DNA of 5,417 bases from NCBI GenBank assembly GCA_023132135.1, contig JAGLYR010000190.1:1-5417 (forward strand). The letters run 5' to 3'. Positions 1,252-5,326 of the stretch are shown here, one piece after another. Position 1 is the first letter of the stretch, and the number at the start of each line of letters is the position of its first letter. This DNA comes from Candidatus Eiseniibacteriota bacterium. Its GTDB lineage: Bacteria; Arandabacterota; Arandabacteria; JAGLYR01. The notes beneath the pieces were generated by a model. That model saw only the letters and a program-made list of their open reading frames with translations, ran no database searches and had not been told where the DNA came from. The translations under genes and the position numbers were made by a program.

Positions 1252-1617
1252 GTGCACATGGATTCCCAGGATCTCGCCCGTCGGATTGCCCGGCTTGCCC
1301 TTGCCAAGAAGGCCGAGGATATTCTGATACTGGATGTCCGGCAGTTTTCTGTCGGCACGGATTTCTTCCTCATCTGCTCCGGGAATTCCGACACCCATGT
1401 CAGGGCTGTCGCGGACGAGATTGTCGAGACCATGAAACATGAAGAAGAGCGCGTCTGGCATGTGGAGGGATACTCGACGGCCCGGTGGGTTCTGCTTGAT
1501 TACGTCAATGTGGTTGCGCATGTGTTTCACCACGAGACGCGATCCTACTTCGGGCTGGATCTCCTGTGGGGAGATGCCCCCTCCGAAAGGTTGGAGGAGA
1601 CGGAGGGGCGAGGATGA
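1252..1617 (+). CDS. rsfS: Ribosome silencing factor RsfS (YbeB/Iojap family)
   Basis: RsfS binds ribosomal protein uL14 on the large subunit and blocks joining to the small subunit, which damps translation in starvation and stationary phase (established for the family). The 121-residue product has the whole family core: an N-terminal helix (residues 5-22), the strand ILILDV (24-29), the signature DFFLICSGNSDTHVRAVADEI (37-57), and HVEGYSTARWVLLDY (70-84) running into VVAHVFHHETRSYFGLDLLWGDAP (87-110). Length is normal. I chose the GTG at 1252 because GGAGGG (1241-1246) sits five bases upstream; an in-frame ATG at 1258 would leave a spacing of 11. The stop overlaps the argS start by four bases (ATGA), so the two are very likely translationally coupled. 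In many bacteria rsfS lies beside nadD or rlmH; neither is visible here. The short charged tail after residue 110 is not conserved in the family. Confidence 0.95.
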   Translation: MHMDSQDLARRIARLALAKKAEDILILDVRQFSVGTDFFLICSGNSDTHVRAVADEIVETMKHEEERVWHVEGYSTARWVLLDYVNVVAHVFHHETRSYFGLDLLWGDAPSERLEETEGRG

Positions 1618-3554
1618 GGCCTGACGTAGAGAGAAGGATCAGGGAGGGATTGCGGGCCGCCATTCTAGCCACGGGTCGCGTCGAGCATCTGGATCTCTCC
1701 GCCGTTCATCTGGAGAAGCCACGGGACCCGGTCCATGGCGATCTGGCTACCAATGCGGCCATGGTCCTGGCTGCCTTGGTGAAGGCGTCTCCCCGCATGT
1801 TGGCCGAAGAAATCGTGGCGCGCTTGGACTTCCCTCCCGATCTGATCGGCGGTGTTGAAATCGCGGGGCCGGGCTTCATCAACCTCCGATGGAGTGATGA
1901 ATTCCTTTTTCGGGAAACCGAACGGATTGTGCGGGCGGGATCCGAGTATGGCCTGGGAGAGAAGAAGGCGGGCAAGCGGATTCAGCTGGAGTTCGTGAGC
2001 GCCAATCCGACGGGTCCGTTGAATGTTGTGAGCGCCCGGGCTGCTGCGGTGGGAGATTCACTGGCGAGGATCCTGGAATGGGCGGGCTGGGAGGTGGAGA
2101 CGGAGTTCTACGTCAACGATGGGGGAACGCAGATCCAGCTGTTTGGGGATTCCATCCGGGCCAGGTTCCTGGAGCTGGGCGGGTTTCCCTCCTCGTTGCC
2201 GGAGGATGGATACCGGGGGGAGTGGGTCCGTGGAATTGCCCGGATGCTGTGGGACCTACTGTCGGAGATCCTGCGCACGGCGAGGGAGGACTTGCCCCTT
2301 GAGCCTTGGCGCGATCTGACAGGTGGCCGGGATATCGGGGACACTTGGGAAGGGGGCACGACACGCGAACGCGCCGCTGCGTTGGCGGATGCCCTCTGTG
2401 ACCATGTGGAGCAGAGAAATGGGGCCCGCGGTCTTGCCGAAGGATGGTTTGCCCCCAGAGGGGGAGGAGATGCGCTGGCTGGCGATCCCGGGCGGGTCTC
2501 GGACGAAGAGGTCCTGGCGCTCGGAGAGCCGTGGGGAGAGACGTTCCCCTTCGGGAGGGTTGGAGTCGCATTCATGCTGGCGTGGCAGAGGGCGTCCTTC
2601 GAGCGGTTTGGCGTGATCTACAATGCAGACGCGTGCGCTGAGTCCGAGCTGAGAGGCTGGTTTCACGAATCCCGGCTATATGAAACCCGTGCCGTGGAGG
2701 ATACGCTGGCGAATCTCAAGACGCTCGGTGATGCGGTGTATGAGAAGGACGGCGCGTGGTGGTTGGCCACCTCCGGTCATGGCGATGATGAAGACAGGGT
2801 CCTCGTACGAAGCGACGGCCGTCCCACGTATTTCCTCACGGACATTGCCTACCACGAGAACAAGCTGCGGCGCGGGTATGACAGCGTGATCGATATCTGG
2901 GGACCCGATCACCACGGCCACGTCGGGAGAATGAAGGCTGCGATGCAGATAGTCGGGGCCGGGCGGGATTGGCTGGAAGTCATCATCGCTCAGCAGGTGA
3001 ATGTGTTGAGGGATGGGAAGCCGGTGAGGATGTCGAAGCGCGGTGGAGAGATCATCAGTTTGGACGAAGTAGTGGCCGAAGCCGGCGTGGACACGGCCCG
3101 GTTCTTCTTCCTGATGCGCAAGACCAGCAGTCATCTCGATTTCGATCTGGACCTGGCCCGGAAAGCCTCGGAGGAGAATCCTGTGTACTACGTGCAATAC
3201 GCGTTTGCCAGGATTTGGAGCATCTACGAATTTGCTCGCCGGCGGAATCTGATGACGGAGGAGATGGGGGACCTGTCGCTCCTGACGGCTCGGGAGGAAG
3301 TACGATTGATGCGGGACCTCGTGCGTTTCCCGGGAGAGGTCAGGGCCGCCGCCGGCACGCTGGAACCGCATCGGCTGACCGTCTATCTTCAGGATCTGGC
3401 CCATAGTTTCCACAAGTTCTACCAGGGGCACCGGGTTGTGGGAGACGACGATGGGCTGTCCCGGGCTCGGCTGAGTATTGTTCACGCTACCCGTGCAATT
3501 CTGGAAACGGGAATGGGGCTTGTGGGAGTGCAACCTCCGAAGGAACGGATGTAG
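1614..3554 (+). CDS. argS: Arginyl-tRNA synthetase with variant HIGH motif and insertion
   Basis: This class I synthetase charges tRNA-Arg with arginine in the cytoplasm. Domains in order: the N-terminal tRNA-binding domain (about 1-95, with HGDLATNAAMVLA at 41-53 and VEIAGPGFINLR at 81-92), the Rossmann catalytic core (about 120-480, with SANPTGPLN at 129-137, FYVNDGGTQIQLFGDS at 165-180, YFLTDIAYHENKLRRGYD at 406-423, WGPDHHGHVGRMKAA at 429-443 and the KMSKS equivalent RMSKRGG at 472-478), and the DALR anticodon-binding domain (about 522-646). I chose the ATG at 1614, giving 646 residues, because GGAGGGG (1602-1608) is five bases upstream and it makes the ATGA overlap with rsfS. An upstream in-frame ATG at 1566 would add 16 residues lying inside rsfS. 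Oddities: the HIGH motif is N137-V-V-S140, the usual His of YVQYAHAR is Phe531, and residues about 215-315 carry roughly 80 more residues than my recollection of B. subtilis ArgS. The frame is intact and all flanking motifs are conserved, so it is probably functional. Confidence 0.96.
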   Translation: MRPDVERRIREGLRAAILATGRVEHLDLSAVHLEKPRDPVHGDLATNAAMVLAALVKASPRMLAEEIVARLDFPPDLIGGVEIAGPGFINLRWSDEFLFRETERIVRAGSEYGLGEKKAGKRIQLEFVSANPTGPLNVVSARAAAVGDSLARILEWAGWEVETEFYVNDGGTQIQLFGDSIRARFLELGGFPSSLPEDGYRGEWVRGIARMLWDLLSEILRTAREDLPLEPWRDLTGGRDIGDTWEGGTTRERAAALADALCDHVEQRNGARGLAEGWFAPRGGGDALAGDPGRVSDEEVLALGEPWGETFPFGRVGVAFMLAWQRASFERFGVIYNADACAESELRGWFHESRLYETRAVEDTLANLKTLGDAVYEKDGAWWLATSGHGDDEDRVLVRSDGRPTYFLTDIAYHENKLRRGYDSVIDIWGPDHHGHVGRMKAAMQIVGAGRDWLEVIIAQQVNVLRDGKPVRMSKRGGEIISLDEVVAEAGVDTARFFFLMRKTSSHLDFDLDLARKASEENPVYYVQYAFARIWSIYEFARRRNLMTEEMGDLSLLTAREEVRLMRDLVRFPGEVRAAAGTLEPHRLTVYLQDLAHSFHKFYQGHRVVGDDDGLSRARLSIVHATRAILETGMGLVGVQPPKERM

Positions 3555-3564
3555 GGAGATCGAG

Positions 3565-4491
3565 ATGGAACTACTCGTGGTCGGTTCTGTGGCTCTTGAC
3601 ACGGTGAAGAGCCCGGCCGGTGAGCGGGAGGAAATGCTGGGAGGTTCCGCCATCTATTTCTCCGCTGCGGCTTCCTACTTTGGTCCCGTGAGGCTGGTGG
3701 GAGTAGTGGGCGAGGATTTCCCTTGGGACGAGGTGGAATTCCTGAGGGAACGTGGTGTCGATCTTGAGGGGCTGGAGATAGCTGAGGGGAAGACGTTTCG
3801 CTGGTCCGGGGTGTATCCGGAAGAAGGGGAGCGGGAAACGCTTCTGACCCGGCTCAACGTGTTCGAGAACTTCCGCCCGAAGATCCCTGCGCAGTACCGG
3901 AGCAGTGAGATGGTGTTCCTCGCCAACATCGATCCCGTCCTGCAGCTGGAAGTGTTGAGACAGGTGGGTAACGCGAGGCTCTCCGCCTGCGACACTATGA
4001 ATTTCTGGATCGACTCGAAACTGGAACGGGTTTTCGAGGTTCTGTCGCGCGTGCAGATGGCTTTCTTCAACGACGGCGAGGCCCGGTCCGTCGTTCGGGA
4101 ATCGAACCTCCCGCTGGCGGTGGAAAAGATACACGCCGGCGGTCCCGCGATCGCGGTGGTGAAGAAGGGAGAGAACGGGGCCCTGATGAGCTACAAGGGG
4201 TCGATGTTTGCTGTGCCCGCGTTTCCGCTGAAGGATGTCCAGGATCCCACGGGAGCCGGCGATTCCTTTGCCGGGGGAATGATGGGATACCTTCTGTCCA
4301 AGGGTTCGCTGGAGAGGCGGACGTTCCGGGAGGCTGTCATCTACGGGACCGTGATGGCATCCTTTGCTGTGGAGGGTTTCGGTGTCGAACGTCTCAAGGT
4401 TCTGCGGGAGGAGGATATCGAGCAGCGTGCGGCGAAGCTGGTCGGCATGATCAGCCTCTCTCCACGAAACAGTGTGGCGGGAACTTCTTGA
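3565..4491 (+). CDS. PfkB/ribokinase-family sugar kinase, substrate unknown
   Basis: This 308-residue protein belongs to the PfkB family, which phosphorylates sugars, nucleosides or related alcohols using ATP. The C-terminal signature DPTGAGDSFAGGMMGYL (227-243) contains the catalytic base Asp233 and the anion hole GAGD. The N-terminal substrate-side motif is GGSAIYFSAAASYFG (26-40). Other family features are RLVGVVGEDFP (43-53), FFNDGEAR (167-174) and the nucleotide-binding VVKKGENGA (198-206). Length is usual for the family. The ATG at 3565 is chosen because GGGAG (3554-3558) lies six bases upstream and the core strand LLVVGSVALD begins at residue 3; the frame is open further upstream but that part overlaps argS. 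It begins 10 bases after the argS stop and is probably co-transcribed with rsfS and argS. The substrate cannot be read from sequence; adenosine, ribose, fructose-type and cofactor-precursor kinases all share these motifs. The link to translation genes may be no more than shared expression. Confidence 0.88.
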   Translation: MELLVVGSVALDTVKSPAGEREEMLGGSAIYFSAAASYFGPVRLVGVVGEDFPWDEVEFLRERGVDLEGLEIAEGKTFRWSGVYPEEGERETLLTRLNVFENFRPKIPAQYRSSEMVFLANIDPVLQLEVLRQVGNARLSACDTMNFWIDSKLERVFEVLSRVQMAFFNDGEARSVVRESNLPLAVEKIHAGGPAIAVVKKGENGALMSYKGSMFAVPAFPLKDVQDPTGAGDSFAGGMMGYLLSKGSLERRTFREAVIYGTVMASFAVEGFGVERLKVLREEDIEQRAAKLVGMISLSPRNSVAGTS

Positions 4492-4516
4492 TCAATTCCG
4501 GGGAATTCGTTATGCT
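4488..4516 (+). promoter_or_regulatory. Promoter for the last gene, overlapping the kinase stop codon
   Basis: TTGATC (4488-4493) and TATGCT (4511-4516), each with four of six consensus bases, are exactly 17 bases apart, the same spacing as the promoter at 66-94. The -35 box includes the kinase stop codon TGA (4489-4491). A transcript would start near 4523 and give a leader of about 39 nt before the ATG at 4562. This supports a separate unit for the last gene and argues for that start rather than an upstream one. Use is inferred. Confidence 0.5.
4494..4507. promoter_or_regulatory. Dyad between -35 and -10 boxes, possible operator
   Basis: AATTCC (4494-4499) and GGAATT (4502-4507) are perfect 6-bp inverted repeats separated by two bases. 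The dyad starts right after the -35 box and ends three bases before the -10 box. That is where a repressor, or an activator that reshapes the spacer, would bind. A 6-bp dyad can occur by chance, and no regulator gene is present in the window. Confidence 0.35.
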
Positions 4517-4561
4517 GCCCCCGGCTTGGCCGCAACATGCTCGCGCAGACACGGGGACAAC

Positions 4562-5326
4562 ATGACCATTGTTTTTGATGAGGATGACGGAACCGGTTTC
4601 ACGGACCAGAGCGTTTCCCCATTGAGCGGGAAAGGATACTCGTTGTCAGCGCGCATCCAGCAGGCCGGTCGAGCAATTGAGGAGATCGAGGGTGTGGTGT
4701 CCGCCCGGGTGGAGGCGGCACAGGACGGACGAGTGGAAGAGGTGCACGTTGTGGCCCGCGGGGGACGGAGGGCTAAGGAGATCGTGCGCGACGTGGAGAC
4801 CCTCCTCAAGGCAAAGTTCGATCTGGAAATTGACCACCGCAAGATCAGTGTGGCTCGCTTGGGTGATGCTTCTCAGACTCCACGGGAACCGGAGGTCGCT
4901 TCTCGAGTCGGCTTCCAGAGCGTTTCCCTTCACCTATCCCGCGAGGGAGGGGAAGCGAAGGTGGATTTGTCCAGCGGGAGCCAACGCTGGGTCGGAAGAG
5001 CTTCGTCCCGTGGTCCTGAGTCCGCGTGGCCTCGCCTGGTTGCGCGGGCAACAATCGACGCTGTTTCGCAAATGTTGCCTCCGGATTCGTTCCTGGAGCT
5101 TGCCGACCTCACCACGGTCACTGTCGCTGAACGGGATGCCATACTGGTGTCGTTACGCTACCGGAAACAGCGCCACTCCATTGACCTGATGGGATGCGCG
5201 TCCATGGAGGACGACGTGCAGCGTTCCGTTGTGTATGCCGTCCTCCACGCGATGAACCGATTCCTCGGACGTTTCTCCGACACGGCCCAGAGAGAGCTCA
5301 TCCTCGAACCACCGTGGGACTCCTAG
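4562..5326 (+). CDS. Conserved-looking two-domain protein of unknown function
   Basis: I do not recognise a named family for this 254-residue protein. It has an acidic, probably disordered start (1-25), then a compact domain (about 28-100) with the pattern IEGVVSARVEAAQDGRVEEV, a KEIVRDVETLL helix (72-82) and a final DHRKISVARL (91-100). A variable Pro/Ser-rich linker (101-115) leads to a second domain (about 117-238) with alternating strands, for example VSLHL, AKVDL and AILVSLRY, and two predicted helices, ARATIDAVSQML (161-172) and VVYAVLHAMNRFL (223-235). I have an unverified impression of similar proteins in other high-GC bacteria. No signal peptide, membrane segment or catalytic motif is visible, so it is probably cytoplasmic. 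The ATG at 4562 is chosen from the promoter at 4488-4516 and from where acidic protein-like sequence begins; its Shine-Dalgarno (GGGGA, 4553-4557) is close and weak. A GTG at 4472, inside the kinase gene, and a TTG at 4643 are alternatives. Confidence 0.75.
   Translation: MTIVFDEDDGTGFTDQSVSPLSGKGYSLSARIQQAGRAIEEIEGVVSARVEAAQDGRVEEVHVVARGGRRAKEIVRDVETLLKAKFDLEIDHRKISVARLGDASQTPREPEVASRVGFQSVSLHLSREGGEAKVDLSSGSQRWVGRASSRGPESAWPRLVARATIDAVSQMLPPDSFLELADLTTVTVAERDAILVSLRYRKQRHSIDLMGCASMEDDVQRSVVYAVLHAMNRFLGRFSDTAQRELILEPPWDS

Follow-up and report, generated by a model that had tools for sequence, protein, structure and literature searches.

A bacterial arginyl-tRNA synthetase type carrying N-V-V-S in place of the class I HIGH motif

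Altered HIGH motifs in class I synthetases

Two catalytic signatures are taken to define class I aminoacyl-tRNA synthetases; the HIGH motif (HxGH), which counts as indispensable for the use of ATP, is one of them. TrpRS has the signature TxGN, and both TrpRS and the ArgS proteins with TIGH, TVGH, SVGH or HLGG are ordinary synthetases in which the histidine at position 1, at position 4 or at both is replaced. All of them retain the glycine at position 3. This glycine is strongly conserved to accommodate adenine, which in class I enzymes is held between the tip of alpha1 (the HIGH glycine) and the beta5/KMSKS side; in IleRS1 a phenylalanine stacks on the adenine (PMC10485003). In several class I enzymes, mutating the first HIGH histidine costs about 10^3-fold (PMC10485003). 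The nearest precedent for a natural loss of HxGH is IleRS2 (G/AXHH), which has a bulky third residue in its altered motif, is still active and is tied to mupirocin hyper-resistance (PMC10485003). IleRS2 retains a histidine, its positions 1 and 3 having changed places, and it coexists with IleRS1 in bacteria.

Here we describe an arginyl-tRNA synthetase (ArgS) from Candidatus Eiseniibacteriota bacterium, encoded in a window of 5,417 nucleotides (the whole stretch of DNA that was analyzed). Like IleRS2, this enzyme and its relatives, defined by N137 and V139 and called N-type below, have naturally lost HxGH, carry a larger residue at the glycine position and recur in bacteria. Unlike IleRS2, they keep no histidine in the motif, are the sole copy and have no linked antibiotic. 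The takeover seen in IleRS2, where a histidine at position 3 replaces the first histidine, is impossible in the N-type because position 3 is valine.

The closest described arginyl enzymes are the canonical NPTGP-type ArgRS (TIGR00456, for instance Campylobacter jejuni 3fnr). They share with the N-type the fold, the domains including DALR, the NPTGP context, EFxSAN, the DHH loop, KMSKR and the arginine-site residues. The N-type differs in having N[VI]V[SN] for HxGH, in A143, P431 and Q/H461, in a constant KMSK lysine and in its frequent position behind rsfS. We found no solved N-type structure; the C. jejuni, P. horikoshii, E. coli, N. gonorrhoeae and yeast ArgRS entries, aligned residue by residue, all keep HxGH. 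Nor did we find, in the open-access literature, a description of a HIGH-less ArgRS or of the peptides NPTGPLNVV and NPTGPLNIV.

The argS gene of the window and its product

The genes of the window all lie on the forward strand:

132-1136, + strand: polyprenyl synthetase gene
1252-1617, + strand: rsfS, ribosome silencing factor (PF02410 / TIGR00090)
1614-3554, + strand: argS, arginyl-tRNA synthetase of 646 aa, N-type (HIGH-less), assigned by TIGR00456, the DALR_1, Arg_tRNA_synt_N and tRNA-synt_1d domains and the AF2 fold
3565-4491, + strand: pfkB-family kinase gene
4472-5326, + strand: ORF of 284 aa, no Pfam or NCBIfam match

The argS gene starts with the ATG at 1614, which overlaps the rsfS stop as ATGA (1614-1617), and ends with the stop codon at 3552-3554. 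A pfkB-family gene is often found downstream of N-type argS, and stretches similar to the 284-aa ORF occur near argS in three other loci (L018, L172 and L173).

The product passes the TIGR00456 equivalog (362.9 bits, curated cut-off 261.65), and its matches to PF03485 (N-terminal Arg), PF00750 (class I catalytic) and PF05746 (DALR anticodon-binding) are all above cut-off. Its AF2 model (pLDDT 89.8) has the class I (Rossmann-type) catalytic fold, with ArgRS as the top PDB fold matches, followed by CysRS and MetRS. The following features were located within the gene:

1989-2006, + strand: E126 to N131, equivalents of yeast ArgRS E148 and N153 (yeast numbering by alignment), invariant in the N-type
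2022-2033, + strand: N137-V-V-S140 replacing HxGH (from the translation and alignment to canonical ArgS)
about 2253-2573, + strand: catalytic-domain stretch that is expanded and poorly conserved, with low pLDDT at about residues 221-310
2829-2843, + strand: Y406 to D410, equivalents of yeast ArgRS Y347 and D351 (yeast numbering by alignment), invariant in the N-type
3027-3041, + strand: RMSKR (residues 472-476), the KMSKS loop, with its second lysine K475 at 3036-3038

The KMSKS loop is thus present as RMSKR, and NVVS occupies the site of HxGH. The sequence of the motif region is NPTGPLNVVSARAAAVGD, in which N-V-V-S stands at the place of the class I H-x-G-H. The original prediction had read residues 131-140 as NPTGPLNVVS, followed by ARAAAVGD, and the translation (nt 2004-2033) agrees; the alignment to canonical ArgS likewise bears out that both HIGH histidines and the glycine are absent. 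That alignment is without gaps, which excludes a displaced HIGH motif nearby. The further claim that everything around the motif is intact held for the flanking residues and failed for A143, P431, Q461 and K475, which are systematically unlike those of canonical enzymes.

We take yeast E148, N153, Y347 and D351 to be the arginine-recognition residues. All four equivalents (E126, N131, Y406 and D410) are kept in the window ArgS. Compared with L024, the expanded stretch adds about 80 residues to its catalytic domain; across the window's class, ArgS is expanded there by roughly 80-130 residues on the same comparison, and the inserted sequences are unlike between relatives.

Distribution, copy number and ancestry of the N-type

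N[VI]V[SN] is also found at the motif site in five relatives of the same class (G001 and G003-G006). A degenerate DNA pattern for NPxGPxN[VI]V matched 46 genomes in a diverse panel of 386 from bacteria (about one in eight), belonging to 41 genera and, by our own count from the listed family codes, 29 families; the panel was spread over families and was not a random sample, so this fraction is not a natural frequency. A control pattern read backwards gave 0 matches in the 386 genomes, and a degenerate pattern for the canonical motif was too noisy for a census. The only named carrier found was a Candidatus Goldiibacteriota MAG (L055). When plasmids were searched for relatives of the N-type with a name, 86 records gave a match; among the 15 matches listed, none exceeded 43% identity. 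The N-type looks like an old, working and unstudied ArgRS type. Two genomes of a neighboring family in the same class (G002 and G007; L183 and L184) have an ArgS of a different type, with SVGH in place of the N-type motif, an apparent case of gene displacement.

A canonical second argS copy alongside this one had been named in advance as the result that would overturn the reading of an evolved variant. We searched for one in the source genome (96.4% complete, 345 contigs) and in the 46 carrier genomes, and found none. The only other weak ArgS match in the source genome (on C48) is a CysS with a normal HVGH. With the TIGR00456 profile, which was run on the 46 pattern-carrying genomes plus G002 and G007 and was positive in 14 of 14 control genomes, archaea included, no second full-length ArgS was detected in any of the 46 carriers, among them the single-contig genomes G065 and G147. 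The other matches were short and weak, most of them within long frames resembling synthetases of other kinds, or were parts of genes cut off by a contig end. One genome (G186) has a 70-codon C-terminal ArgS fragment with a stop on a separate contig. Because the organism needs an ArgRS and the N-type is the only copy, we infer that the N-type enzyme must charge tRNA-Arg; for the window ArgS, charging is likewise implied by its sole-copy status. The claim of an evolved variant and not a decayed gene is upheld by this widespread type being the sole ArgS in 46 of 46 carriers.

For the trees, the trait columns were left out. The N-type fell into several groups in the free quick trees (9 changes), which had poor backbone support, and the tree that held all N-type proteins together had a lnL 10.8 better than the free quick tree. 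One common origin of the N-type was not rejected by the AU test (p = 0.596). Given this test and the better likelihood of the held-together tree, we read the split as the product of an incomplete search and not as evidence for many origins. The suggestion that these synthetases mark a single clade therefore stands in a weaker form: one origin is compatible with the AU test and the conserved gene context, and falls short of proof given the split in the free quick trees. Among loci with enough flank, rsfS is the immediate upstream neighbor of argS, in the same orientation, in 29 of 45 N-type loci and in 2 of 93 H-type loci (the Gly139 enzymes defined below), where 93 overstates independence since Nocardia, Lentzea and Gammaproteobacteria are heavily represented in the H-type set. 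The rsfS linkage agrees with a single ancestry of the N-type. The ribosome silencing factor and the N-type ArgS may be functionally connected.

Linked positions, rival explanations and a proposed mechanism

The comparison covered 47 N-type and 103 H-type proteins, all of the NPTGP kind; the H-type was defined by Gly139 in an NPxG context, and His137 was not required. In a ranking of columns by divergence between the two sets, A143, Q461, P431 and S140 came next after the two defining positions, well above all others. Three of the linked changes, A143, P431 and Q/H461, played no part in defining the groups:

2040-2042, + strand: A143, co-varying, mostly Gly in the H-type (weighted, Ala 0.95 in the N-type and Gly 0.79 in the H-type)
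2904-2906, + strand: P431 of the WGPDHHG loop (canonical WGADHHG), in 47 of 47 N-type and 1 of 103 H-type proteins
2994-2996, + strand: Q461, adjoining the adenine-contact segment before KMSKR (canonical F/M/L), Gln or His in 45 of 46 N-type and in 0 H-type proteins

The weighted frequency of Ala at 143 in the H-type is about 0, and H-type residues at 461 are F, M, L, I or T. At the nucleotide/ribose loop, a helix is predicted to begin with P431; this predicted helix, which follows the WGPDHH strand, spans 431-446 in the N-type model, compared with 341-351, a later start, in the canonical model. The second lysine of MSKR, K475, is found in 46 of 46 N-type and 57 of 103 H-type proteins. On the tree it changed 0 times over 29.1 units in the N-type and 6 times over 32.2 units in the H-type; about 5.4 changes would be expected in the N-type, and our Poisson estimate for none is about 0.005, which is a modest test.

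In yeast ArgRS, two backbone brackets hold the adenosine phosphate at residues 153 and 405 (PMC5919687). These align to N131 and V462 (the latter give or take one residue), so that Q461 adjoins the second bracket, yeast V405; near 461, the alignment to ArgRS of the eukaryotic and E. coli types may be off by about one residue. By homology, the linked changes map to the nucleotide site and the arginine-binding residues are unchanged. Two other enzymes bear on the same positions. An NPNGP-type ArgS (L189, G011) has TIGS and P431 with Leu461 and is possibly a partial package, and an ArgS of the other bacterial type (L205, G050) has SVSH, a separate loss of the position-3 glycine, to serine.

Four other accounts of the motif deserve weighing. 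A sequencing or assembly artefact, or a local pseudogene, might be suspected in a window from a draft assembly of 345 contigs. The same motif recurs with different codons in 46 genomes, the frame is open over 684 codons, and this reading is refuted, with a probability close to nil; the independent genomes also dispose of a base-calling error at the motif, a possibility raised from the start. A catalytically dead paralogue with another job, such as a regulator or a protein like the ArgS-related NrtL, would account for the loss of both histidines and the glycine, and the NrtL model (NF045898) gives a weak match of 111.9 bits, below its cut-off of 340. This reading is refuted in practice by the sole-copy result, since charging of tRNA-Arg is indispensable, and KMSK, DALR and the arginine-site residues are all retained; we regard it as very improbable. 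Selection for resistance to a natural inhibitor of ArgRS, one that acts at the ATP site or mimics the adenylate, has a direct precedent in the mupirocin hyper-resistant IleRS2, which is also of class I and is altered at the same positions of the motif (PMC10485003), and the changed positions of the N-type lie at the nucleotide site. Such an origin seems improbable all the same: the N-type is the sole ArgS across distant families and not a second copy, and no producer or resistance context lies near argS within the window. To our knowledge, no such natural ArgRS inhibitor has been described.

The remaining account is that HIGH is simply tolerant of change in ArgRS, so that near-neutral drift was fixed once by ancestry, with ordinary chemistry and no compensation. 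Few HIGH contacts are seen in ligand complexes (PMC5919687), and motif positions 1 and 4 vary in otherwise ordinary ArgS, often with T, S or G at position 1 and N, G or S besides H at position 4. H-type proteins carry H or T in the first position and H, N, G or S in the fourth, and the other bacterial ArgS type provides the cases of a first-position S or G. One panel genome (G274) has NPTGPLNVGH, an asparagine with the glycine kept. Judging from these sequences, histidine loss by itself is not unusual in ArgRS, and the rare part of the change is Gly to Val at position 3. Against tolerance, position 3 is only Gly or Val among the NPTGP-type proteins collected, which include no H137/V139 or N137/G139 combination. 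Moreover, P431, Q/H461 and A143 accompany Val139 across 29 families, a depth at which drift would be expected to scatter them. We consider this account unlikely, although co-variation within one clade may reflect shared ancestry without compensation.

The explanation that we favor, and hold to be probable, is that the N-type is an ancient, functional bacterial ArgRS subfamily with a rebuilt ATP site, which would activate arginine without the HIGH histidines, by means of Asn137 and the KMSK lysine. ATP would still bind in the class I site, with its adenine contacts rearranged. On the alpha1 side, the adenine-packing glycine would give way to valine, and on the beta5/KMSKS side a bulky hydrophobic residue to Gln or His, so that the adenine contact would be inverted between the two sides. 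P431 may re-set the GxDH ribose loop. The transition state would be stabilized by Asn137 and the KMSK lysine in place of the HIGH histidines, and arginine recognition and tRNA charging would proceed as in other ArgRS. We infer the altered ATP-site chemistry from co-varying positions that homology places at the nucleotide site. The original interpretation is thus supported in part: the evolved variant is borne out, and the altered chemistry is a proposal.

A bolder version, which we offer tentatively and think rather doubtful, is that the N-type is a second catalytic solution in class I, HIGH-less and driven by Lys and Asn, with an inverted adenine sandwich and possibly with a different preference among nucleotides or an inherent resistance to inhibitors that mimic the adenylate.

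The motif N[VI]V[SN] together with GPDHH serves as a marker for the N-type subfamily, which warns against annotation or inhibitor design that presumes HIGH. If the favored explanation is true, the N-type would be a natural, essential and widespread HIGH-less ArgRS with valine at the adenine-packing glycine. The signature would then be replaceable as a package, and the N-type would let the catalytic residues be told apart cleanly.
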